Below, piece after piece: positions 8,922 to 54,994 of a stretch of DNA of 64,000 nt (position 1 is its first letter; the number at the start of each line of letters is the position of its first letter). Position numbers and translations under genes: made by a program. The stretch spans positions 50,461 to 114,460 of the forward strand of contig ONCE01000002.1 of the NCBI GenBank assembly GCA_900316245.1. The letters are read 5' to 3'. A model generated the notes under the pieces. That model was not told the DNA's origin. It worked only from the letters and a program-made list of their open reading frames with translations, and made no database searches. This DNA comes from an uncultured Bacteroidales bacterium (lineage in GTDB: Bacteria > Bacteroidota > Bacteroidia > Bacteroidales > UBA932).

Positions 8922-8950
8922 AAAAAAGGGCGGCCCGGGAGGGTCGCCCT
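8922..8950 (-). terminator. Intrinsic terminator after the small secreted gene
   Basis: Read on the minus strand, 8950 to 8922, this is a 7-bp lower stem (AGGGCG... type), one A/C opposition, a 3-bp cap, a 4-nt loop and a run of six U. It lies 6 nt beyond the stop of the 8957-9622 gene and ends the SusCD-1 transcript before the mannosidase operon. On the opposite strand the mismatch would be a G-U wobble, but there is no U tract there. Confidence 0.85.
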
Positions 8951-8956
8951 AAGGGA

Positions 8957-9622
8957 CTAAAACAATTGTTTGAGATAAGAAATAACCTGCAGGGCCTGCT
9001 GGGCGTTCTCCAAAGTGTATTTCTTTTCTTTCACGTAAGCTTTGAGGGCGGGCGCCTGGTCCGGGAAGGCTTTATACAAATCCTTGAGCCGTTGGGCCTT
9101 GTACTGCACGCCCCCTATCTTGAAGATGTAGGTATTGTTGCCCTTCCGCTGCCATACCTCCTGCACATAATCTCCCCTTTGGGCAAACATTCCGTCTCCT
9201 TTCACCGGTTCGCCGGGAGCGAGACTGGTCCACAGGACGTCCACTTTGTTCTGCGTAGTGGCTCCCAGTGCTCCTTTGGAGCCCTTGTTCACGTTCTTGA
9301 ACTTCCAGTTCACGTAGACGGTATCTCCCGGCCAGGCCAGTTGTTCGCACAGGAGCCCCTCCTTCATCACAAAGCGCTTCCCGCTTACAAGGAGCGTGTC
9401 AATCAGGTACATATTGGTGAGCTCCATCAGCGTCTCTCCCTGCAGGTAAAAGACGCGCTGGCCCATGGCGTCAATGTTCAGGAGCACCTCTTCCTTCCGC
9501 TCGAAGCCCTGGAAAGAAAGGGTCCCGGGCTGGAATTCGGGGAAAAGGAAGACAGGCTGCTGGGCCAGGAGGGAGAAGGCCGAAAAGAGGCTGATAAAAA
9601 GGGCCGATAAGGTGCGTTTCAT
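8957..9622 (-). CDS. Small secreted protein of a SusCD-linked family (member 1)
   Basis: The frame extends to 9673, but ATG 9622 gives a proper Sec signal (MKRTLSALFISLFSAFSLLA, cleavage before QQ), so a 221-residue product is called. It has no lipobox. I do not recognise a named domain. It is clearly related to the products at 41940-42599 and, in its N-terminal half, at 48036-48689: F-x-P-G-x-L-x-F at residues 30-37, LNID at 48-51 followed by Gln55, and a C-terminal YIFKIGGVQY...LKDLYKAFPD segment. All three follow a SusD gene. Here SusD ends 67 nt upstream and an intrinsic terminator (9635-9666) lies between, ending 12 nt before this start. Expression by read-through is likely. A periplasmic accessory role for the SusCD transporter is inferred. 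Confidence 0.8.
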   Translation of the reverse strand: MKRTLSALFISLFSAFSLLAQQPVFLFPEFQPGTLSFQGFERKEEVLLNIDAMGQRVFYLQGETLMELTNMYLIDTLLVSGKRFVMKEGLLCEQLAWPGDTVYVNWKFKNVNKGSKGALGATTQNKVDVLWTSLAPGEPVKGDGMFAQRGDYVQEVWQRKGNNTYIFKIGGVQYKAQRLKDLYKAFPDQAPALKAYVKEKKYTLENAQQALQVISYLKQLF

Positions 9623-9634
9623 AAGAATTGGGTT

Positions 9635-9666
9635 AAAAAGTGGCGCCGTCACAAAGGCGGCGCCAC
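9635..9666 (-). terminator. Intrinsic terminator between SusD-1 and the small secreted gene
   Basis: On the minus strand the arms GTGGCGCCG and CGGCGCCAC (9 bp) enclose a 9-nt loop in which a C/A opposition sits on top of the stem; a U tract of five follows (635-639). It starts 23 nt after the SusD stop and ends 12 nt before the ATG at 9622. It should reduce, not abolish, transcription of the small gene, because no room for a separate promoter remains. Confidence 0.8.
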
Positions 9667-9689: not shown

Positions 9690-11552
9690 TTATTTTTTGG
9701 GCGTGCCCCACTGGGGAGCGTTCTTGTCCTGCCACAGGCGCTCGGTGTTGAGCAGCGTGGTGGTGGCGTAACCCATACCGGACTGGTTCTTTCCAGGGGT
9801 AAGGCCCTGCTCTTTCAGGTTCTCCATACGGATATCGTGCATGATGTCGGTAGGAGAAGGCTCGTTGAATTCGAAGCGGCGGGGAACACCGGCCAATTCA
9901 AATTTCTCGAACTTCACGTAAGGAAGGAGCGTGGAACCCACCTTGGGATAACCGGAACGACGGGCGGTGACATACAGCTCGTTGGGAAGCATGGTGAAGT
10001 TCATCAGCTGCTGCAGATAGATCTTCTCCATGGAACCGTCCCACTTCACGGCGTCCGTATTGAGCATGGCGGCGATTTCGCCTTCCTTCAGCTCGATGCT
10101 GGCCTCCAGCGGATCGTAACCATAAGTGGTTCCGTAGTAAGGAATCTTGTTCTTGCCGGCCACGTAGTCCCACTCTTTCACGGAGAGTTCTACGCCTTTC
10201 TCATAGTAGGCCTTTGCGCTGCCGCTGATGGCACCGAGCTGGGCCAGTTCGGCCAGGTAGAGGTTGGTTTCACCGGCACCCAGGTACATACCCCACCAAG
10301 GCATCTGGGTGTTGTCCTGGATCACAGGACCGCCGGGGATGGTAGGAACGGAGTAGCCGCAACGGCCGCGGACCATCTCTTCGGAGAGAGAGGAGAAGAG
10401 GCCATAGGACTTGGTGGCTTCACCAACGGTGAGCTGGTAGCGGTCCGTGTAGTCAAAGTAGATGCCCTTGTAGGCTTCGTACTCGGGAGACATTTCCCAA
10501 ACCACGGGACGGCCCTGATAACGGCACCAAGGTTCTCCCAGCTTGTAGGAAACGAAGTTGCCTTCTGCATCCACGTTGATGTTGTCCGTCACGAAAGGAG
10601 GAAGCTTGTCGGCCTTTCCTTCGGTGATGAACTCCTGGATGATCTTGGAGTTGAAACCGTTCTTGGTGTAGAAGAAACGCACGCGAGGGTCGAGGGAGGC
10701 TACCATGTAGTCAATCACGTTCTCGCTGCCGCCAATCATGGAGATGCTGTTTTCGGTCTGGTAAGCAATGTCACCACCGGTAGCGGCATCGGCCTTGTGG
10801 AAGATGAAGGCTTCGTCCAGGCTGTCGATATAGCCTTCTTCGCTGTTCACCACGGACTGAGCGATCTGGCTGGCCTTGGTGGCGTCGTTGGCATACAGAC
10901 GGACGGCGATCTTGAGCTTCAGGGAGTTGGCCAGTTTGGCCCACTTGGCCATGTTGCCGTTGTAGATGATGTCCTGCTTGGCCACTACAACCTGGGTGTC
11001 GTCCTGGAAGGTGTCAATGTACTCGTCCAGTTCCTTGATGAAGAGGTCATAGAGTTCAGCCACGTGGTCGTACTTGGGCTTCAGCTCTCCGCCGTAGCGG
11101 TACTGGGCAGCTTCCGTGTACTGGATATCACCGTTGATATCGATGGCGTAGATGGCGCTGTAGACGGCCAGCACACCGCACATGGCAGCATAAGCCTTGG
11201 CGTCGGGACGCTCATACTTCTCGATAAACTGGTTGATGTCGTTTCTGTAGGTGAGCATGGTGATGTATGCCGTCTGGCGGTGAACCGTGGAGGCATCCAT
11301 ACCATAGGAACCCTCGGAGAAGACTCCGGAGTTACCCATCTGGCTCCATCTGAAGTAGAGAGAATGGTTGTAGAACCAGAAGAGATAGTCGTTGGTCTCG
11401 AACAGCGTCTGGGCGCGGGTGGCCAGGAAGGACGGTTCGGGGTCGGTAACGGCATCCGGCTTCTTGTTGAGTTCGGCGAACTGGTCGCGGCAAGAAGAAA
11501 GACCTACCACCGCGAGCAGAGATAATGCAATGAATATTTTATTTGCTTTCAT
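9690..11552 (-). CDS. SusD/RagB-like nutrient-binding outer-membrane lipoprotein (pair 1)
   Basis: The 620-residue product starts MKANKIFIALSLLAVVGLSSC (lipid Cys21). The sequence follows the SusD_2-like (PF12771) branch of SusD: an N-terminal FAELNKKPDAVTDPEPSFL segment, helical TPR-like repeats, and a C-terminal RRSGYPKVGS...FELAGVPRRFEFNEPSPTD motif. SusD proteins form a surface lid over a SusC barrel and bind the oligomeric ligand. The partner SusC gene is 14 nt upstream on the same strand. This branch is often paired with SusC proteins whose ligands are unknown and may not be simple glycans, so substrate is left open. A terminator follows 23 nt after the stop. Confidence 0.92.
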   Translation of the reverse strand: MKANKIFIALSLLAVVGLSSCRDQFAELNKKPDAVTDPEPSFLATRAQTLFETNDYLFWFYNHSLYFRWSQMGNSGVFSEGSYGMDASTVHRQTAYITMLTYRNDINQFIEKYERPDAKAYAAMCGVLAVYSAIYAIDINGDIQYTEAAQYRYGGELKPKYDHVAELYDLFIKELDEYIDTFQDDTQVVVAKQDIIYNGNMAKWAKLANSLKLKIAVRLYANDATKASQIAQSVVNSEEGYIDSLDEAFIFHKADAATGGDIAYQTENSISMIGGSENVIDYMVASLDPRVRFFYTKNGFNSKIIQEFITEGKADKLPPFVTDNINVDAEGNFVSYKLGEPWCRYQGRPVVWEMSPEYEAYKGIYFDYTDRYQLTVGEATKSYGLFSSLSEEMVRGRCGYSVPTIPGGPVIQDNTQMPWWGMYLGAGETNLYLAELAQLGAISGSAKAYYEKGVELSVKEWDYVAGKNKIPYYGTTYGYDPLEASIELKEGEIAAMLNTDAVKWDGSMEKIYLQQLMNFTMLPNELYVTARRSGYPKVGSTLLPYVKFEKFELAGVPRRFEFNEPSPTDIMHDIRMENLKEQGLTPGKNQSGMGYATTTLLNTERLWQDKNAPQWGTPKK

Positions 11553-20416: not shown

Positions 20417-20444
20417 AGGGCGACCCATCGGGGCCGCCCTTTTT
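20417..20444 (+). terminator. Intrinsic terminator after SusD-2
   Basis: A 7-bp lower stem (AGGGCG side), one A/C opposition (20423/20434), a 3-bp cap, ATCG loop and a run of U (20440-20444). It resembles the terminators at 8922-8950 and 47958-47991 in both sequence and geometry. Confidence 0.85.
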
Positions 20445-27651: not shown

Positions 27652-27684
27652 GCCGGCGACTCTTTCGAGCCGCCGGCTTTTTTT
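27652..27684 (+). terminator. Intrinsic terminator after SusD-3
   Basis: A 7-bp stem GCCGGCG/CGCCGGC, one A/C opposition (27659/27670), a 3-bp CTC/GAG cap, TTTC loop and seven U. It lies between two convergent genes; only the plus-strand direction has the U tract. Confidence 0.88.
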
Positions 27685-39783: not shown

Positions 39784-39795
39784 TTGTATAAGCAT

Positions 39796-41868
39796 ATGAA
39801 AAAGTATATCAATATCCTTTTCGCGGCCGCTCTTACGCTTTCGTTCACCGCGTGCCAGACGTTCCTGACCAGGGACAACCTGACCTCTCTGGACGACGTT
39901 ACCTACTGGAGGACCGAAGAAAATGTCCGTCTCTTTGTGAACGGCGCCTATGGTAACTATTTCAGCGGCTATTCCGACAACTGGGGTCAGGTAAACGCCC
40001 CCGGTGTGTACTCTGCCGGTGAATATAGTGATGATTACACCTCCTCCGGTGTGCAGCGCAACATCCTGCTCTCCGTTCCCGCCGACAACTGGTACCGTGC
40101 CGAATCCACTCCCTACCGTGGTGTATGGCTGGCCCGCCGTGCCGGTTCTGCCTGGAACTTTGCTTATGTCCGTAAGTGGAACCTCCTGATCAACCGTCTG
40201 GAGACCATGAAGGAAGGCGGTTATCTGACCGAGTCCGAATACAATCACTGGATGGGCGTGGCCCGTTTCCTCCGTGGCTGGGAATACAGCCGTCTGGTGG
40301 AAACCTTCGGTGACGTTCCTTACTATGATGACGAGGTGGCTACCGACGACTTCGATACGCAGTTCAAGGACCGCGACCCTCGTTCCATGGTTATGAACAA
40401 TGCCCTGGAAGACTTCAAGTTCGCCATTGCCAACGTCCGCGAAAACGACGGCAAGAACTACATCAACAAGTATGTGGTAGGAACCATCGCTTCCCGTTGC
40501 ATGCTGTTCGAAGGTACCTGGTACGTCTATCACAAGAACGACGAGGCCATGAAGACCTGCTCCGACATTGACGCCAACGCCAAGAAATTCCTCGAGGCCG
40601 CCCGCGACTTTGCCGCAGTGGTTATCGATTCCGGCAACTTCGCCTTCGATACCGACTTCCGCACCCTCTTCGGAACCCTTTACACCACTCCCGCCAGCAA
40701 GGAGATCATCCTTTTCCGTGAGTACAACAAGAGCGTGAACTCTTCGGCCCAGCACTGCATTGCCTCCTATTCCGGCGGTAACGGCGGTTACGAGAGCCAG
40801 ATCACTTCCGGTAACCTCTCCACCCTCAAGGCCTGGATCTGCAACGACGGTCAGCCTTATTCCAAGACCAACGTTGCCGGCGCCGACAGCTGGAGAATGC
40901 AGGATATGGTGAAGACCCGTGACCCTCGCTTCGAAGCTTCCTTCGTGGATGAGCCCGTTCTCTCCGGTTCCACCGGTCTGTATTCCGAGAAGTTCATCGA
41001 CCGTATCGGTGTGCAGTATGCCTACAACGGCAAGACCTGCCCTACCTGCTACGCTTCCGATACCAACGAAAACGGTTACCCTTGCGTCCGTTACGCCGAG
41101 ACCGTCCTTAACTGGATTGAGGCCAAGGCCGAACTGGCCGACCACTTCGGTGGCCCCGCCGTCTCCCAGGCCGATCTGGACAAGTCCATCAACGCCATCC
41201 GTGAGCGTCCGCTGGACCAGACCGCCATTGACAAGGGTGTCAAGAAGACTGCCCATCTTCAGCTGAGCAACCTGCCCGACGATCCCGAGCGTCTTGGTGA
41301 TCCTATCAAGACCACCCTGGGTTACAAGACCGCCGGCGCCACCTCCAAGCTCCTTTGGGAAATCCGCCGCGAGCGCCGTATGGAGTTCTTCCTGGAGCAA
41401 TATCGTCCTCAGGATATCCGCCGTTGGGGCCAGCTGGAGCTTATGCTCATTGCCAACAACCCCGACCTCGGTGTAGGTGGCTGGGTAGAGCTTGACCTCG
41501 CCGCTACGCTGACGGCTGAGCAGGCTGCCGACCTCCCCGGCAACCGTCACGCCCAGAACACCAACCTGAAGAAGACCAAGGCCAACGTAGGTTACAACCT
41601 CCTCACCGCCGCCAACTTTGACATTGTGGCCGTGTATCCTATCGCCAACTCCAATGCCGACGGCACCATCAAGCTGGGTGAGCCTCAGTTCTGGAGCAAC
41701 AAGGTGGAAGATGTATCCGTGATGCGCGGTTTCCTCCGTCCTCAGAAGATTGCAGACCGCGACGCCCGTAACGTGGATGTCCGCAACTATCTGGAACCTA
41801 TCTGCACCGACGTGATCAACCAGTATGCAGAAAAGGGATACACCATTACCCAGAACCCCGGTTGGTAA
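39796..41868 (+). CDS. RagB/SusD-family outer-membrane lipoprotein (pair 4)
   Basis: A TTG at 39784 opens the frame, but ATG 39796 gives the lipoprotein signal (MKKYINILFAAALTLSFTAC, Cys20) and a 690-residue product. It belongs to the classical RagB/SusD branch: FLTRDNLTSLDDVTYWRTEENVRLFVNGAY near the N-terminus, RFLRGWEYSRLVETFGDVPYYDDEV, a PCVRYAETVLNWIEAKAEL motif and the C-terminal LLWEIRRERRMEFFLEQYRPQDIRRW signature. It binds glycan at the surface with SusC-4. A terminator follows 28 nt downstream and then a small secreted protein gene. Confidence 0.94.
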   Translation: MKKYINILFAAALTLSFTACQTFLTRDNLTSLDDVTYWRTEENVRLFVNGAYGNYFSGYSDNWGQVNAPGVYSAGEYSDDYTSSGVQRNILLSVPADNWYRAESTPYRGVWLARRAGSAWNFAYVRKWNLLINRLETMKEGGYLTESEYNHWMGVARFLRGWEYSRLVETFGDVPYYDDEVATDDFDTQFKDRDPRSMVMNNALEDFKFAIANVRENDGKNYINKYVVGTIASRCMLFEGTWYVYHKNDEAMKTCSDIDANAKKFLEAARDFAAVVIDSGNFAFDTDFRTLFGTLYTTPASKEIILFREYNKSVNSSAQHCIASYSGGNGGYESQITSGNLSTLKAWICNDGQPYSKTNVAGADSWRMQDMVKTRDPRFEASFVDEPVLSGSTGLYSEKFIDRIGVQYAYNGKTCPTCYASDTNENGYPCVRYAETVLNWIEAKAELADHFGGPAVSQADLDKSINAIRERPLDQTAIDKGVKKTAHLQLSNLPDDPERLGDPIKTTLGYKTAGATSKLLWEIRRERRMEFFLEQYRPQDIRRWGQLELMLIANNPDLGVGGWVELDLAATLTAEQAADLPGNRHAQNTNLKKTKANVGYNLLTAANFDIVAVYPIANSNADGTIKLGEPQFWSNKVEDVSVMRGFLRPQKIADRDARNVDVRNYLEPICTDVINQYAEKGYTITQNPGW

Positions 41869-41896: not shown

Positions 41897-41929
41897 GGGA
41901 GGGCTCGGTTTTCGAACCCTCCCTTTTTT
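41897..41929 (+). terminator. Intrinsic terminator between SusD-4 and the small secreted gene
   Basis: A 7-bp GGGAGGG/CCCTCCC stem, one C/A opposition (41904/41916), a 3-bp TCG/CGA cap, GTTTT loop and six U. The U tract ends 10 nt before ATG 41940, so the downstream gene depends on read-through or on a promoter within SusD. Confidence 0.9.
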
Positions 41930-41939
41930 ATGAACCAAG

Positions 41940-42599
41940 ATGAAAAAGCTTTTCTTTTCCCTTCTGGCTTTTGCCCTGGCGCTTCCCCTGGCTTCGGCCC
42001 AATCGGCCCAGGCCCAGTTCGAAGCCACTTTGCCGGACAGCGTCCGGTATGTGATGCCCTCCTTCGGCCCGGGAAGTCTCCTTTACAAGGACGGCGGGTA
42101 TTCCAGGGGAACCTTCAATATCTCTACCTTGGACCAGACACTTCGCTTCCTGGATACGGACGGGTCTGAGAAAACCCTGGCCGACCCTTCTCAGGTGGAG
42201 AGCGTTTCCATCTCCAACGTGCTGTTCCTGCACGTCCAGGACAAGTATCTGGGGGTGGTGGCCGATTGTGGCGATGTCCTTCTGTGTGTGGAGAAACGGA
42301 TGGTCTTCGACGACCGCAAGGCTGGGGCCTACGGCACGTCTTCGGCTACAAGCAGCATCCGAACGGTGGGGGGAACGTCTACGGACACCGGCACCACGTT
42401 CCGCTTTTCCAATGTCAAGTACGAATTGAAGGAAACGCCCTTCTTTTATAAGAAAGGACGCCTGATCGTACCCTCCAAGCGTTCTGTCCAAAAGCTGTTT
42501 CCTGCCAAGAAAGAGGCCATAGAGGCTTACTTGCAGGAGACACCGGTAGATTTTAACCGTTACGAAGATTTGAACGCTTTGCTAGTTTCTTTACAATAG
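41940..42599 (+). CDS. Small secreted protein of a SusCD-linked family (member 2)
   Basis: The 219-residue product has a Sec signal (1-20, ending ASA) and no lipobox. It is related to the 8957-9622 product over most of its length: F-G-P-G-S-L-L-Y at 42-49, FNIS at 59-62 with Gln66, a central KAGAYGTSSAT segment matching KGALGATTQ, and a C-terminal PFFYKKGRL...SVQKLFPAKKEAIEAYL. No named domain is recognised; the pattern of strands then two helices suggests a small beta protein. It follows SusD-4 by 71 nt, across a terminator. Like the other members it may assist SusCD assembly, ligand handling or quality control in the periplasm; this is speculation from position. A 160-nt gap with the SusC-5 promoter follows. 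Confidence 0.8.
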   Translation: MKKLFFSLLAFALALPLASAQSAQAQFEATLPDSVRYVMPSFGPGSLLYKDGGYSRGTFNISTLDQTLRFLDTDGSEKTLADPSQVESVSISNVLFLHVQDKYLGVVADCGDVLLCVEKRMVFDDRKAGAYGTSSATSSIRTVGGTSTDTGTTFRFSNVKYELKETPFFYKKGRLIVPSKRSVQKLFPAKKEAIEAYLQETPVDFNRYEDLNALLVSLQ

Positions 42600-47957: not shown

Positions 47958-47991
47958 CCAGGCGACCCTCCCCGGGCCGCCTGGTTTTTTT
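47958..47991 (+). terminator. Intrinsic terminator between SusD-5 and the small secreted gene
   Basis: A 7-bp stem CCAGGCG/CGCCTGG, one A/C opposition (47965/47977), a 3-bp CCC/GGG cap, 5-nt loop and seven U. It ends 44 nt before the GTG start at 48036; a weak -7-like TAACTTTA (48022-48029) lies between. Confidence 0.9.
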
Positions 47992-48035
47992 GTGGGAACT
48001 AGGTTTTTTCGGGAAAATGAAGTAACTTTATCGAT

Positions 48036-48689
48036 GTGAAAAACATTCATTCCATTCTCCTCGCTGCGCTGCTTTTATGCGCACCGGGCCTGCTAAGGGC
48101 ACAGGATGCTGATTATCAACCCTATGCACAGGCTGCCGGGATAGATTTACCCCTTTTCAGGGCCCGCGTAGCCGATGTTTACGGCAATAACTTCAACGGA
48201 ACGTATCTGGTGGATACCCTGGGTTTCAAGCCCGGTGAGATCCGTTTCGAAGGCAAAACCTACCAAAACCTAAGCTTTCAGCTGGATGCCGTCCTCCAGC
48301 ACGTCCTGATGCAGCAGGAAGGCTCTCCCATCATCCTGGACCTGGGATTGGAACGGGTAGAGTACTTTACCCGCGGGAGCCGGACCTATGTGAACCTGGC
48401 TTCCCAGGGCTACAACGTGCCGGCCGGCTTCTACGAGCAAGTGGTCAGCGGCCGGGGCGCCGTGTACAAAAGGGTGGACAAATCCCTGAACCACCTGATG
48501 GACCTCAATCGGGATGCGTCGGCCTATATCGGTTACAATGATCCCAATTACCGTTTCAATTTGGTGAACTACTTCCAGTACAAGGAAAGCTGGTACTGGG
48601 TCAAGGAGGATGGAACGGTCCAACGTCTCCGCAGCAAGCGGAAAGTCCGCAACGCCATTCAATCTGTTAATGCCCATGAGACGCATTAG
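48036..48689 (+). CDS. Small secreted protein of a SusCD-linked family (member 3)
   Basis: The 217-residue product uses GTG 48036 (the ATG two nt upstream meets a stop at once). A Sec signal (about 1-22, LLRA-QD) is followed by a 40-residue extension absent from the other members, then the family pattern: F-K-P-G-E-I-R-F at 64-71, FQLD at 81-84 with Gln88, and a C-terminal YWVKEDGTVQRLRSKRKVRNAIQ. Relation to the 8957 and 41940 products is clear in the N-terminal half and weaker after it. It lies after the SusD-5 terminator, and its last codons overlap the start of the STN-type TonB receptor, so it links the SusCD pair to that second operon. Function unknown. Confidence 0.76.
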   Translation: MKNIHSILLAALLLCAPGLLRAQDADYQPYAQAAGIDLPLFRARVADVYGNNFNGTYLVDTLGFKPGEIRFEGKTYQNLSFQLDAVLQHVLMQQEGSPIILDLGLERVEYFTRGSRTYVNLASQGYNVPAGFYEQVVSGRGAVYKRVDKSLNHLMDLNRDASAYIGYNDPNYRFNLVNYFQYKESWYWVKEDGTVQRLRSKRKVRNAIQSVNAHETH

Positions 48690-51318
48690 TATCCTTCTGG
48701 CGGTCCTGTTGCTGCCGTTGGCCGCCTACGCCCAAAACGATACGGTAAGCGTCCGTATGGTGTCGGCCGATTCCCTGGTGCAGGTGATGCGCCGGGTGTC
48801 GGGAAGCAGCCTCTTCATTGCCCGTGCCGGGGACGACCCTGCCACCTACAGCGTGGCGGCTCCCCGTGCCCAGTTCCTGGACCAGGCCCTGAAAAAACTC
48901 CTTTCAGCCGGTTATACGGCTTCCGAGTGGGAAGGCAGCCTGTATATCATCCACGGCCATTCTCTTCGCTCCAACCTGGGCACCGACTGGTTCAAACTGG
49001 GCCGGACGCAGCAGCAGGAAGTGCTGCAGGAGCAGAACGTGGCAGCTACCTATCTGAACAAAGTCTACGAGATTGGAGACGAGAAGCGTATGCGGAAGGG
49101 CGGCAAGGCCGTCATCCACGGCTATGTGCGCGACAAGGCCACCTCGGAACCCGTAGTGGGCATCACCGTCTATGACGAGAAATCCTCCAACTACGCCATG
49201 ACCGACAGTTACGGCTTCTGGCGTATGCAGGTGCCCACCGGCGAAAACCACCTCAATTTCAGCGGCTACCCTATGGAAGACGTGCGCCTGGAAGTGCGCA
49301 TCTTCGATGACGGCGGTCTGGACATTGAGATGACGGAAAAAGTGGTCACCCTCAAGGCCGCTTCCATATCGGCCGAAAGCGTCTCCCTCCACCGCACGGC
49401 CCGGATAGGCGTAGAAAAGATCCAGGCCGACCGCCTCCAGAAGATTCCCACCGCCTTCGGTGAGGCCGATATCATCAAGGCCGTGCTGGCCCTGCCGGGC
49501 GTACAGTCGGTGGGCGAGGCCTCCTCGGGCTTCAACGTCCGCGGCGGCTCGGTGGACCAGAACCTCATCCTCTACAACGACGGAACGGTCTTCAACCCCA
49601 ACCATATGTTCGGCATCCTCTCCTCCTTCAATCCGGACCTGATCTCGGAGGCCGAACTGTACAAGAGTTCCATCCCGGCCGAATACGGCGGCCGCATCTC
49701 CTCGGTGCTGGATATCCGCACCAGGGAAGGAAATGCCAAGAAAATTACCGGCTCCCTGGGCCTGGGCCTGCTGACCAGCCGCGTCCACCTGGAAGGCCCG
49801 CTGGTCAAGGACAAGACCACCTTCACGCTGGGCGGCCGTACCACCTATTCCAACTGGATCCTGGGCCTGCTGCCCAAGAACAGCAACTACCACGGCGGCA
49901 AAACCTCCTTCCAGGACGTAAACGCTTCCATTACCCATAAGCCCAACGACAAGAATACCTTCCAGGTCTTTGGTTACTGGTCCCGCGACAAGTTCTCCTT
50001 TGCGGCCGATACGTCCTTCCATTATTCCAACCTCAATGCATCGGTCCGTTGGCGCCATATTATGAACGCCAGCAACAATATGGAAGTGAGCGCCGGCTAC
50101 GACTCGTACCGGACCACCATTGACGGAGACCAGAGCTACGATTACGGTGCCTACCGGTACAAACACGCCCTGGGCCAGGAATTCCTGAAACTCAAGTTCA
50201 AGTCTACCGTCTCGCAGGCCCATACGCTCTCTTACGGTCTCCAGACCAATGTCCTCAATTTCCATTCCGGCCATATGATGCCGCTGGGAGAGGCCTCGGG
50301 TATCAAAGACCGCGACCTGGGCCTTCAGATGGGCTTGGAACCTTCTCTCTACTTCAGTGACAACTGGACGGTGAGCGACCGCTTCTCCCTGGACGGCGGC
50401 GTGCGTCTGGGTGGCTTCCTGCCCCTGGGCAAGAGTAAGTTCTACTTTATGCCGGAACTGCGCCTTTCGGCCAAATTCTCCATCCTGCCCAGCCTGACGG
50501 TGAAGGCCGGCGTCAACAGTTTCCGCCAGAACATCCATATGATCACCAACTCTTCCACGGTGTCTCCTATGGACGTTTGGGTGATGGCCTCGGACCGCAT
50601 CAAGCCGCAGGACGGCTGGCAGGCGGCGGCGGGCCTGTACTGGACGGTGGGCCCTGTAGATATCTCCCTGGAGGGTTACTACAAGCGCAGTTACAACAGC
50701 GTGGACTACCGTTCGGGCGCCATGCTGGTGATGAATGAGAACCTGCCCGACGACCTCCTCACCACCACGGCCCGCGCCTACGGAGCAGAGCTTATGATCC
50801 GCAAATCCACCGGCCGCCTCAATGGCTGGGTATCCTACACATATGCCCGTTCGCGTATGAAGGAGACCCAGGCCGATGATCCTTTCCCCATCAACAACGG
50901 GGAATGGTACAATACCCCGCACGACAGGCCCCACACCGTGAAGATGGTGGCCAATTACAAGTTTACGCACCGCTACAGCATATCGGCCAATCTGGATTAT
51001 TCCACCGGCCGTCCCGTGACGGTGCCCGTGGGCGTGTTCTACTACGGCGGCGTCCGCCGGCTGGCCTATTCCGAGCGAAACGCCCTGCGCATCCCGGATT
51101 ACTTCCGCCTGGACCTGGCCATCAACGTAGAGCCCAGCCACTACCTCAAACGGCTTACCCATCTGTCCTTTACCATCGGCGTTTACAACGTTACAGGCCG
51201 AAAGAACGTCTATTCCGTGTACTATACGGTGGACGGTCCTACGGATAAGCCCAAAGGCCATATGGTTTCCGTGTTTGCTTCCCAGATCCCTTACATCAAT
51301 CTTAACCTGAAGTTCTAA
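48676..51318 (+). CDS. TonB-dependent receptor with STN-like and carboxypeptidase regulatory domains
   Basis: ATG 48676 (MRRISILLAVLLLPLAAYA) gives a clear signal peptide; ATG 48670 is two residues longer and the open frame extends to 48610. The 880-residue product has an STN-like domain (about 22-92), a CarboxypepD_reg-like domain (about 142-225), a plug (about 240-345, with LPGVQSVGEASSGFNVRGGSVDQNLILYNDG) and a barrel to the C-terminal INLNLKF. An N-terminal STN domain usually passes signals to an anti-sigma factor, but none is encoded nearby. There is no SusD partner; a DUF4249 lipoprotein follows with a 1-nt stop/start overlap, a combination recurrent in Bacteroidota. Ligand unknown. The start overlaps the preceding gene by 14 nt. 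Confidence 0.9.
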   Translation: MRRISILLAVLLLPLAAYAQNDTVSVRMVSADSLVQVMRRVSGSSLFIARAGDDPATYSVAAPRAQFLDQALKKLLSAGYTASEWEGSLYIIHGHSLRSNLGTDWFKLGRTQQQEVLQEQNVAATYLNKVYEIGDEKRMRKGGKAVIHGYVRDKATSEPVVGITVYDEKSSNYAMTDSYGFWRMQVPTGENHLNFSGYPMEDVRLEVRIFDDGGLDIEMTEKVVTLKAASISAESVSLHRTARIGVEKIQADRLQKIPTAFGEADIIKAVLALPGVQSVGEASSGFNVRGGSVDQNLILYNDGTVFNPNHMFGILSSFNPDLISEAELYKSSIPAEYGGRISSVLDIRTREGNAKKITGSLGLGLLTSRVHLEGPLVKDKTTFTLGGRTTYSNWILGLLPKNSNYHGGKTSFQDVNASITHKPNDKNTFQVFGYWSRDKFSFAADTSFHYSNLNASVRWRHIMNASNNMEVSAGYDSYRTTIDGDQSYDYGAYRYKHALGQEFLKLKFKSTVSQAHTLSYGLQTNVLNFHSGHMMPLGEASGIKDRDLGLQMGLEPSLYFSDNWTVSDRFSLDGGVRLGGFLPLGKSKFYFMPELRLSAKFSILPSLTVKAGVNSFRQNIHMITNSSTVSPMDVWVMASDRIKPQDGWQAAAGLYWTVGPVDISLEGYYKRSYNSVDYRSGAMLVMNENLPDDLLTTTARAYGAELMIRKSTGRLNGWVSYTYARSRMKETQADDPFPINNGEWYNTPHDRPHTVKMVANYKFTHRYSISANLDYSTGRPVTVPVGVFYYGGVRRLAYSERNALRIPDYFRLDLAINVEPSHYLKRLTHLSFTIGVYNVTGRKNVYSVYYTVDGPTDKPKGHMVSVFASQIPYINLNLKF

Positions 51319-52583
51319 TGAAAAAGCAGCTTATCATCCTTGCAGCCCTGCTGCCCCTTTTAGGAGGCTGCGTCTACGACTTTGAGGCAGAATTGACCGG
51401 AGACCAGTACACGGTGGTTATCGAAGGGGATATTATGGTGGGTGGCACTACCACTGTCAATTTTACCCGCCTGAACCCCGAGGTTCTGGAGGGAAAGCAG
51501 AACGAGCAGACCAAGGCTTTGTACCCAGGCGACCCCGGTTGGGGAATCCCGGTCAGTTTCACCGCCCAGGTGGAAGGAGAAGACGGTACCCTTGTGGAGG
51601 GAGAGGCCTCCTGGGGGTCCTGTTCCATAGATACCCGTTTCCTCCGGCCCGATGTCCGTTATCGCCTGCGCGTGCACGATCTGGAGCAGAATCACCATTA
51701 CGTGAGCAGTTGGGAAACCGTACAGGGAGGCCCCGTCATTGACAGCCTATCCTACAAGGCCGCCGAAGACCATCTGGATGTGCGGGTCACCTTCCACTCC
51801 GATGGCACTACACCCTACTATTGCCTGGCCCAGGACGAAGAGTGGGAATATCACGCCAATACCACCACTACGTTCCGGTATATCCCCAGGGGAGGGAAAG
51901 AACCCGAAGAGGGTATACAGATTTTCCCCTCTATGGATTCCCATTATAAAGACACCTACGGCCGCATCTTTGACGTTCGCGGGAACTATCCCAACTATAC
52001 TTGCTGGGACAGTACCATCAAGGGCGTGACCACAATCATTACTACCGGCGCCATGGAGTCCAACAAGATGGTGGATTATGTATACCGTACCCTGGATCAG
52101 CACGACCGCCGGATCAGCGTAATGTATCATTCCATCGTGTCCCTGCGGATGATCTCCAAGGAGAGCTACGCCTACTGGGAGAGCATTGAGAGCGCTTCCA
52201 CCCAGACGGGAGACCTGTTCTCTCCCATCCCCAGCATCCTGCGCGGCAACATCGTCAACGAAGACAATCCCGCCGCCCAGGTCATAGGCTATATCGGAGT
52301 CTCCGAACTGGTAACCAAAGACATCTTCATCAAGCACCAGGATGCCCGTGTTTACAAGCAGCCCAGCGGTTTCTATGATAACCTGATGAAGGCCACCATA
52401 GGAAGTGGAGACGAGATGGGCGTGAAGATCTTTGAAATGGCCCAGCGCTATGCACAGGGATACCGTCCCTGGATGATGGATGCCGTGGGCGACAACCCCT
52501 TTTATGTCTGGATTCTGGAGGGTTGTATGGATTGCCGCACGCTGGGCGGAACCGTGGTAAAACCCAAGGACTGGCCCGAATAG
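51318..52583 (+). CDS. DUF4249 family lipoprotein
   Basis: The 421-residue product has a lipobox (LLGGC, Cys18) and then the DUF4249 pattern: VYDFEAELTGDQYTVVIEGDIMVGG, a strand-rich region with YRLRVHDLEQNHHYVSSWETV, a central IYFPSMDSHYKDTYGRIFDVRGN, and a C-terminal GNIVNEDNPAAQVIGYIGVSE. DUF4249 proteins follow carboxypeptidase-domain TonB receptors throughout Bacteroidota and may be SusD substitutes on the cell surface; that role is inferred from context. The start codon shares one base with the stop of the receptor gene, so they are translated together. A conserved CMDCRTLGG near the C-terminus has two cysteines. Confidence 0.85.
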   Translation: MKKQLIILAALLPLLGGCVYDFEAELTGDQYTVVIEGDIMVGGTTTVNFTRLNPEVLEGKQNEQTKALYPGDPGWGIPVSFTAQVEGEDGTLVEGEASWGSCSIDTRFLRPDVRYRLRVHDLEQNHHYVSSWETVQGGPVIDSLSYKAAEDHLDVRVTFHSDGTTPYYCLAQDEEWEYHANTTTTFRYIPRGGKEPEEGIQIFPSMDSHYKDTYGRIFDVRGNYPNYTCWDSTIKGVTTIITTGAMESNKMVDYVYRTLDQHDRRISVMYHSIVSLRMISKESYAYWESIESASTQTGDLFSPIPSILRGNIVNEDNPAAQVIGYIGVSELVTKDIFIKHQDARVYKQPSGFYDNLMKATIGSGDEMGVKIFEMAQRYAQGYRPWMMDAVGDNPFYVWILEGCMDCRTLGGTVVKPKDWPE

Positions 52584-52594
52584 GAGGATAGGAA

Positions 52595-54214
52595 ATGAAA
52601 CGATTCTTTTTAATCATACTGGCCGCCGGGATGTTTTGCCCGGCCTTTGCCCAGCGGGCAGAGCGTACGTATGTAACCACCGACCGCAGTTGGTACGCCG
52701 CCGGTGAGACGGTCTATCTGTCGGCCTTCTGTGTGGATGTGTCGGATGGCGTGAGCCTGTCCGAGGTCAGTTCCGTGGCTTATCTGGAACTCACTTCGGC
52801 CGAAGGAATGGCGGTGAGCGGCAAGGTGGCACTGCTTCACGGCCGGGGTGCCGGTACCCTGGTGCTCCCCCGGAGCCTTCCTACCGGCAACTACCGCTTA
52901 AGCGCCTATACGGCCCTTTCCAGAAGGGAAGGGGACTATGATGCCCGCAAGGGTTCCCGCATCCTCTCCGTCTATAACACCCTGTCCACGGCCCGCATGA
53001 CCGATGCCGTGGTGGTGGAAAAGGCTCCGGCCGCTCCCGAGGCCCTGCCCCATTCATCGGCCCTCCGTGCCCAGCTCACTCCTGACGGACAAATCAGCCT
53101 TTCCTCCGAGGCCCCTGCCAGCCTTTCGGTTTCCGTTTTCCGCAACGAGCCCCTGGCCCGGTACGGAACGGCTACGCTGGGACAGGTTTTGGATACGCCG
53201 GCTTATCCCGCCACCCGGGACGTGGTTCCGGAGTACGACGGAGAAATCCTCACCCTGCATTTGACCCGGGCCGATGGCGAGCCGCTAAGAGATCTGGAAT
53301 CCTGGGAAGTGTTCATCTCCCGCCCCGGCCATCTGGAAGACATTTACTCCGGCCAGCTGCAGCCCGACGGAAGCGTGCGCTTCTTCACCGGCAATTTCTT
53401 CGGCCCCGGAGACCTGGTGGTGACGCTTGAAAAAGGCGCCCCCGCCTTCAAGGTGGAGATGGAAAGCCCTTACCGCAACCTGGCTCCCCAGGACATTCCC
53501 AACCTGGTGCTGGATCCTTCCCAGGCCGATGTGATTACCCGCCTGGGCGCGCGTATGCAGGTGACATCGGCCTTTGAAGCCGATACCCTGTATCAGCGGC
53601 TTCCCACCCGTTCCCTCGCCTTCCTCTCGGACAAGTATATCACGTACGTTCTGGACGATTATACCCGTTTTGCCACCCTGCGGGAAGTGTTTGTGGAGTA
53701 TCTCTCCGACATCCGCACCCGCGGCAGGGGAGAGGACCTGGAGATGCAGGTGCGTACCTTGCGGACGCAGAACGGCGTTGCCGCCTTCAGGGACCTGCCG
53801 TCCCTTATCCTGGTGGACGGCGTTCCGGTCTTCAACCATTCGCTGGTCTATGCCATGGATCCGGCCCTGATCCAGCGCGTGGAGGTTTTCCCGTATTACT
53901 GCACCTTCGGCCGCGTGATGTATAGCGGCGTGGCCAATTTTGTAACGTTCAAGGGAGATTTGGGCGGCATCCGCTTCGGCGACAACGTGCGCATCCTGAG
54001 CTTCTCCGGCGCCGGCTATCCTTTGGCCTTCACGCCTTCCGAAGACCCTCGTTACCCTGGCCAAAGGGAGACGCTCCTGTGGCAGCCGCTGCTGGACATC
54101 CAGCCCGGAGAGACCCTCCTGCTGCCCATTATAAAGGCCGATGAAGGCCTGGTGCTCCAGGTAGAAGGGCTTACAGCCGACGGCAAACCCCTTTATCTCC
54201 GACAAGAATTTTAG
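52595..54214 (+). CDS. Secreted protein with macroglobulin-like domains and an orphan TonB plug-like domain
   Basis: The 539-residue product has a Sec signal (1-19, AFA-QR). The N-terminal part (about 22-115) resembles an MG2-like fold: TYVTTDRSWYAAGETVYLSAFCVD and LPTGNYRLSAYTALSR are the usual motifs. A C-terminal region (about 360-460) reads like a TonB receptor plug: TLREVFVEYLSDI, LILVDGVPVFNH, DPALIQRVEVFPYYCTFGRVMYSGVANFVTFKG. No barrel follows. Similar barrel-less plug proteins occur beside carboxypeptidase-type TonB receptors in Bacteroidota, with unknown function. It lies 11 nt after the DUF4249 gene and 15 nt before the Ig-like lipoprotein. It might occupy the neighbouring receptor channel or act as a surface adaptor; both ideas are untested. 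Confidence 0.75.
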   Translation: MKRFFLIILAAGMFCPAFAQRAERTYVTTDRSWYAAGETVYLSAFCVDVSDGVSLSEVSSVAYLELTSAEGMAVSGKVALLHGRGAGTLVLPRSLPTGNYRLSAYTALSRREGDYDARKGSRILSVYNTLSTARMTDAVVVEKAPAAPEALPHSSALRAQLTPDGQISLSSEAPASLSVSVFRNEPLARYGTATLGQVLDTPAYPATRDVVPEYDGEILTLHLTRADGEPLRDLESWEVFISRPGHLEDIYSGQLQPDGSVRFFTGNFFGPGDLVVTLEKGAPAFKVEMESPYRNLAPQDIPNLVLDPSQADVITRLGARMQVTSAFEADTLYQRLPTRSLAFLSDKYITYVLDDYTRFATLREVFVEYLSDIRTRGRGEDLEMQVRTLRTQNGVAAFRDLPSLILVDGVPVFNHSLVYAMDPALIQRVEVFPYYCTFGRVMYSGVANFVTFKGDLGGIRFGDNVRILSFSGAGYPLAFTPSEDPRYPGQRETLLWQPLLDIQPGETLLLPIIKADEGLVLQVEGLTADGKPLYLRQEF

Positions 54215-54229
54215 GGATCAATATCAGAT

Positions 54230-54994
54230 ATGAAAAAACTATTCGTTATGGGTTTAGGGGCCATTGTGCTCCTGCTCTCCGGGTGCCGTCAAGCGTCCAT
54301 CCCGGTTCAAAAGATCGAGTTCAACCCCGGGTTCGCCAAACTCTTCATAGGGGAGGAGCAGACGTTCACAGTCAACTGCACGCCCTCTTCGGCCACCAAC
54401 CTGGAAGACCTCGTCATCCTCAATTCCAACCCCTCCGTGGCCACGTTTGAAAACGGAAAACTGGTGGCCAAGGCGGGCGGTTATACCTCTCTCACGGCCG
54501 TCTGCGGTGAGGCCAAGGCCTCGGCCGACATCACCGTCTATTCCGGCTGGTTCACCAAAGGGGACAGGAAATTCGGCGTGGATATAGCCACCGGCTATTA
54601 TTACACGATGGGCGAATCCTCTCCCCAGGAGATGGAAATCACCCTCACCAACAACCTGCCCAACGAAGACACCCAGAACTTCTGGCTCTGGATGAAGTGT
54701 GAAAACCTGGGACAGACCATCGATTTCCTGCAGGATATGAAGGAGACGATGGTCTCGGTCCAGCTGAACAACAACGAAGACGGCTACTGCATCCCCTACT
54801 ACAGCGAAGACCAGGGCCGCCCGGTGGTGAAACTGGCCGACTGGGGAGACACCGACCTCACCCTCACCAAAGGCCTCCTGACGGTGACCAAGACCGGCAA
54901 CGCCACCTTCAGCATCGTGGCTGATTTCGCCCTCTCCAACGGCTACACCTTCAAGGCCGAATGGGAAGGCGCCCCCCTGATGCAGCAGCAATAA
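54230..54994 (+). CDS. Lipoprotein with bacterial Ig-like (Big_2-type) domain
   Basis: The 254-residue product has a lipobox (LLSGC, Cys19) followed by a Big_2-like Ig domain (about 28-105: VQKIEFNPGFAKLFIGEEQTFTVNCTPSSATN and NSNPSVATFENGKLVAKAGGYTSLTAVCGEAKASADITVYSGW). The C-terminal 150 residues are strand-rich with no recognised domain. Such domains mediate surface adhesion or binding. It ends the STN-receptor operon, 15 nt after the plug protein, and its 3' end lies next to the tRNA-Ser promoter, with no terminator visible between; the transcript may run into the tRNA or stop at its leader hairpin. Confidence 0.8.
   Translation: MKKLFVMGLGAIVLLLSGCRQASIPVQKIEFNPGFAKLFIGEEQTFTVNCTPSSATNLEDLVILNSNPSVATFENGKLVAKAGGYTSLTAVCGEAKASADITVYSGWFTKGDRKFGVDIATGYYYTMGESSPQEMEITLTNNLPNEDTQNFWLWMKCENLGQTIDFLQDMKETMVSVQLNNNEDGYCIPYYSEDQGRPVVKLADWGDTDLTLTKGLLTVTKTGNATFSIVADFALSNGYTFKAEWEGAPLMQQQ

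Follow-up and report, generated by a model that had tools for sequence, protein, structure and literature searches.

The DNA analysed here (the window; 64,000 nucleotides, from an uncultured Bacteroidales bacterium) contains five SusCD pairs, and in three of them SusD is followed by the gene of a small exported protein: P1 (221 aa; 8957..9622, - strand), P2 (219 aa; 41940..42599, + strand) and P3 (217 aa; 48036..48689, + strand). P1 lies directly 3' of the SusD gene at 9690..11552 (-) and P2 directly 3' of that at 39784..41868 (+); the latter matches PF07980 over the cut-off, and its ATG start is probably at 39796. The SusD before P3 (46074..47936, +) had been called in the sequence-only reading, was used as a seed of the SusD profile and aligns with the other SusD proteins. 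P3 overlaps by 14 nt the gene of a TonB-dependent receptor (48676..51318, +; 880 aa from the ATG at 48676; PF00593, PF13715 and PF07715), and the P3 operon continues with a DUF4249 protein (51318..52583, +; PF14054) and an MG2-like/plug-like protein (52595..54214, +; PF01835 at E 1e-6 and 29.4 bits, under the cut-off of 32.8). Together with a following protein that has a sub-threshold Big_2 domain, this row occupies positions 48036-54994.

The small genes, the hairpins before them and their common motif were all found where the sequence-only reading had placed them. The motif reads FQPGTLSF in P1 (residues 30-37), FGPGSLLY in P2 (42-49) and FKPGEIRF in P3 (64-71); LNID, FNIS and FQLD, respectively, come after it, each with Gln four residues on. 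In all three proteins the signal peptide ends in A-Q, and a lipobox cysteine is absent (sequences inspected by eye), as expected of Sec-exported, non-lipidated proteins, which the earlier reading had taken them to be. Proteins of the family are probably soluble in the periplasm, because they appear to be exported and not lipidated.

Pairwise BLAST of P1, P2 and P3 was rejected as proof of kinship (P1 vs P2: 20% identity, E 0.019); it is too weak and a profile is required. As single queries, P1 and P2 retrieved the same genes in six other genomes, and a 30-row profile (alignment A1), of which both are themselves rows, scored them over full length at E 5e-50 and E 3e-57, respectively. On this profile evidence P1 and P2 are members of one Sec-exported family of about 220 aa. 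P3 gave E 0.0018 with the same profile and an hhalign probability of 93% over 140 columns in both halves (one unrelated control protein of the window, 5%); it was not among the best 12 of 28 profile candidates of its own genome at E 0.001, it carries Gln at a column that is Asn in 30/30 members, and as a single query it found no full-length relative in 198 genomes, the four short matches besides itself being probably due to chance. A protein of region L162 (hhalign, 98%) has genes of TonB receptor, DUF4249 and MG2 type as neighbours (assigned from ORF sequences), and P3 sits directly 5' of a similar gene set. The earlier claim of a single family is thus sound for P1 and P2 and less sure for P3, which would be a remote member, not fully proven.

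The family is widespread. Among the best 10-12 candidates per genome, at least 164 of the 249 genomes from the window's bacterial family had a profile match, as did at least 117 of 295 order-level genomes; many of the order-level matches form a looser group, with a match in two pieces and without the GaYG loop. No Pfam model (best E 0.0032) and no NCBIfam model (best E 0.002) matched more than one of the 30 members scanned, P1, P2 and P3 themselves had no Pfam match over the cut-off, and no PDB sequence matched the family profile at E 1; the earlier statement that no function is described for such a family agrees with this absence from the Pfam, NCBIfam and PDB sequence models. The AlphaFold model of P2 (mean pLDDT 77) has a core at around 90, a disordered loop at residues 127-157 and C-terminal helices; Foldseek searches of PDB and BFVD with this model found nothing at E 0.001. 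The model of P3 was poor (pLDDT 57) and has strands and helices in the same order as that of P2, a likeness partly imposed by an alignment led by relatives of P2. The predicted architecture of the family is a beta-rich core joined to C-terminal helices over a disordered loop of GaYG type.

A terminator hairpin was located by folding and by a terminator detector between SusD and each of the small genes: at 9640..9666 (-) before P1, at 41897..41923 (+) before P2 and at 47958..47984 (+) before P3; folding energies were -19.8, -18.8 and -19.1 kcal/mol (z -4.9, -3.2 and -4.2), and each hairpin has a U tract. The distance from the U tract to the start codon is 12 nt for P1 and 10 nt for P2, in agreement with the earlier values. 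A stock consensus scan returned 11 sites in the window vs 8.3 in shuffles, did not list the hairpin before P2 and gave a short form of that before P3; the detector, with one mismatch tolerated, picks up all three and matches 16 of 400 random 150-nt pieces. As noted earlier, SusCD pairs 2 and 3 lack a small gene, yet their SusD genes also end in a terminator (detector; 20418..20439 and 27652..27677, both +), so that all five SusD genes of the window are closed by one.

A common hairpin design, GGCGA-CYC...GRG-CCGCC, whose A-C mismatch is located three pairs away from the loop, recurs in four window terminators (8928-8949 on the - strand; 20418-20439, 27652-27677 and 47958-47984 on the + strand; 4 vs 0.04 expected); in 299 fetched loci the design occurs only in L003 and L004, both of which belong to the window itself. 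Among strong terminators, 8/9 in the window have a single A-C or C-A mismatch vs 18/110 in other genomes; on other contigs of the window's genome the figure is 1/5.

In same-strand gaps of 60-120 nt a terminator precedes 23 of 28 family genes vs 21 of 89 other genes. Members adjacent to SusD stand behind a terminator in 12 of 13 cases, and in 11 of 11 clean cases, from which L137 (mis-set start) and L169 (terminator inside a longer reading of the gene) are left out; that the small gene is always behind a terminator therefore holds for the SusD-adjacent members and fails for the family as a whole.

The reverse question was put to homologs of one SusD, that before P2, in 398 family-level genomes. 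Of 90 listed matches 89 were followed (a 338-aa contig-end fragment, G541:C6, was left out), and five that lacked both a family gene and 700 nt of downstream sequence were removed, giving 84 homologs; the downstream reach was 1.3-1.5 kb (at most about 1.5 kb in L210-L239). Among these matches the family gene stood next to 9/84 homologs and was absent directly after 75/84, the latter including G608, whose ortholog lies about 4 kb on (L175, not directly after SusD; judged to be of the same genome from a shared neighbouring frame). By SusD identity, the gene was found in 6/20 (at least 60%), 3/26 (52-59%) and 0/38 (41-51%). The terminator followed a different course: it was detected in 20/20 of the closest homologs (6/6 with the gene and 14/14 without), in 3/3 with and 20/23 without at 52-59%, and in 14/38, all without the gene, at 41-51%; below 60% identity it was present in 34/61 homologs that lack the gene. 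The terminator is not tied to the family gene, as the 14/14 close homologs demonstrate; because it is present with or without that gene, it marks where the SusCD operon ordinarily stops. Close relatives of the SusCD pair before P2 usually end their operon in this way, with a terminator ahead of the gene that comes after SusD, and stoichiometric control should not be read out of such a terminator.

These counts bear directly on the interpretation first given to the locus, a third SusCD subunit made at a fixed ratio by leak of RNA polymerase through the terminator. A precedent is transporter stoichiometry set by internal terminators in Clostridia, described in an excerpt of PMC9045158. Also in its favour are the short distances from the U tract to the start codon in P1, in P2 and in L212 (15 nt), all without a -7 promoter element; against it stand the terminators that occur without the gene, in 14/14 close SusD homologs and in both such pairs of the window (2/2), and the lack of the gene directly after 75/84 of the SusD matches listed.

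The -7 element of Bacteroides and other Bacteroidota, given as TAnnTTTG in an excerpt of PMC7366714, was searched for between terminator and gene. A perfect copy lies between stem and start in 9/25 members behind a terminator (shuffles: mean 1.8, highest 7 in 500); within 60 nt it precedes 8/25 family genes, a share close to that of ordinary separate genes (53/171) and above that of operon-internal genes (4/261). The orthologs L099 and L110 of P2 and L135 and L140 of P1 have a perfect element between terminator and start, which speaks against read-through. P1 and P2 have none in this interval, and before P3 there is a near match, TAACTTTA (48023..48030, +), with 5/6 fixed positions of the element as excerpted and 5 nt 5' of the start codon. 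The promoter set supplies 12, and the reverse test four more, of the 16 distinct members that adjoin SusD and stand behind a terminator. Six of the 16 carry the perfect element, about the rate seen in ordinary separate genes, and ten, P1-P3 included, do not, a count that the read-through reading may claim for itself; among the nine SusD-followers of the reverse test two have it, namely L099 and L110 themselves, and the remaining seven, which include P2, match no more than 4/6 of the -7 positions. The absence of a perfect element says little, however, since 118/171 ordinary separate genes are also without it. For P1, P2 and L212 either read-through or an unusual promoter may be at work.

As a rule for the family, then, the read-through third component is not supported by the counts (14/14 and 5/5 for the terminator, 9/84 for the gene, 78/107 members away from SusD), and we consider it unlikely; it could still apply to P1 and P2 and to the other SusD-adjacent members without a perfect -7 element. 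A narrower version, in which P1 and P2 no longer have promoters of their own here and are transcribed by leakage past the SusCD terminator, the close relatives having kept theirs, is unlikely as well. If true, it would mean that a plain operon end has become a dial coupling a periplasmic accessory to SusCD output.

Placement next to SusD was counted in 99 of 100 chosen regions plus the window (L151, which overlaps L104, was left out); the regions were taken from the listed matches, mostly the strongest and not at random, and beyond the window SusD and SusC were labelled by profiles seeded with window genes, which may miss divergent ones. The 107 members, with those of the window counted in, comprise 13 labelled as lying directly after SusD (one of them, L137, with a doubtful start), 16 one or two genes further and 78 in neither position. 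Near SusD, meaning no more than three genes behind one on the same strand, were 7/22 order-level members vs about 2.0% expected, a rate calculated solely from PF14322 (404 matches across 18 genomes, gene density assumed to be 850 genes/Mb); P is about 2e-7, and 2e-5 at twice this rate. Placement after SusD is enriched, yet concerns a minority, 78/107 members being placed elsewhere; placement directly after some SusD genes is recurrent.

Adjacency to SusD follows the family tree, with 7 changes vs 12.5 in shuffles (0/500 as low). P1 groups with L135, L140 and L169 (support 98), all directly after SusD, and P2 with L099 (98) and L110 (90), likewise all directly after SusD. The SusD genes 5' of the P1 relatives are mutually the closest in the set, and the same is true of those of the P2 relatives, where the closeness extends also to the SusD of L106 and L116. 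The SusD before P1 is 66, 66 and 45% identical to those before L135, L140 and L169, respectively; L169 comes from another bacterial family than P1, so the P1 group is kept across two bacterial families at 45-66% SusD identity. P2 orthologs stand directly after this SusD type (at least 66% identical) in 5/7 genomes of the window's genus that have it; the genus mate G569 has no P2 ortholog behind its SusD.

Other members adjoin genes of serine hydroxymethyltransferase, pyruvate:ferredoxin oxidoreductase or RNA polymerase beta', and some are located 5' of a subtilase gene; for those beside housekeeping genes no transporter role fits. Four regions (L118, L124, L139 and L142) have the order SusC, SusD, a protein of about 287 aa, terminator, family gene and a protein of about 872 aa; the former is a Calx-beta protein in L139, the latter a Peptidase S8 in the related L138, and a protein of about 290 aa follows in several loci of this type. 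In L100 (4475-6690) four consecutive pieces of family genes, of which three are short, look like decaying tandem copies.

The members away from SusD raise the alternative of adjacency without function, that is, a widespread orphan family that comes to lie beside SusCD as both are common and mobile. The 78/107 members not near SusD, the 75/84 listed SusD homologs without the gene and the looser-group regions L190-L209, of which just 3/20 (L190, L191 and L197) have SusD close upstream on the same strand, agree with it; the 7/22 order-level members near SusD vs about 2% expected, the persistence of the P1 group in two bacterial families and the 5/7 genus mates with a P2 ortholog directly after this SusD do not, and it is held to be quite improbable.

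The best explanation, and a fairly probable one, is that the small gene is a separate unit encoding a facultative periplasmic accessory of the adjacent envelope locus. P1, P2 and P3 would be divergent members of a large Bacteroidales family of small exported proteins, different paralogs being attached to different SusCD pairs. The small gene would usually form its own transcription unit, beginning just behind the SusCD terminator, and its product may serve as a facultative accessory of the adjoining outer-membrane uptake or secretion locus, most likely acting from the periplasmic side in cargo handling or as an aid in the assembly of envelope complexes; the biochemical role as a periplasmic accessory is a guess. 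A widespread exported family without a Pfam or NCBIfam model thereby gains its first genomic context in rumen-type Bacteroidales, namely certain SusCD uptake loci as well as other loci of the envelope.

Several known systems were compared. A link to type IX secretion, suggested by neighbours with sub-threshold Por_Secre_tail matches (subtilase, C10 and GH127 proteins), was dropped, because GldM (TIGR03517), one marker for T9SS, had no match in the window's genome (92.8% complete) or in three other sampled members of its bacterial family; GldM is present in 268/295 order-level genomes. Sm-like and other small beta-barrels (Hfq, YaeO/Rof) gave partial Foldseek matches to the P2 model (55-75 columns, probability 0.6-0.96), all of them short, at E >0.001 and with a low TM-score on the P2 query; similar short viral matches at E >0.001 were obtained in BFVD. 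Hfq and YaeO/Rof are cytoplasmic RNA binders, whereas the family protein is predicted to be exported. SusE, SusF and other surface glycan-binding proteins are lipoproteins encoded right after SusCD; P1-P3 resemble SusE and SusF in apparent export and in position, and differ from them in having neither a lipobox cysteine nor a Pfam match over the cut-off. The terminators of Clostridia ABC-transporter operons, as far as the excerpt of PMC9045158 describes them, likewise stand between the transporter genes and a neighbour; in contrast to that description, the terminator here is found also where the neighbour is missing, and four close orthologs of P1 or P2 have a promoter element behind it.
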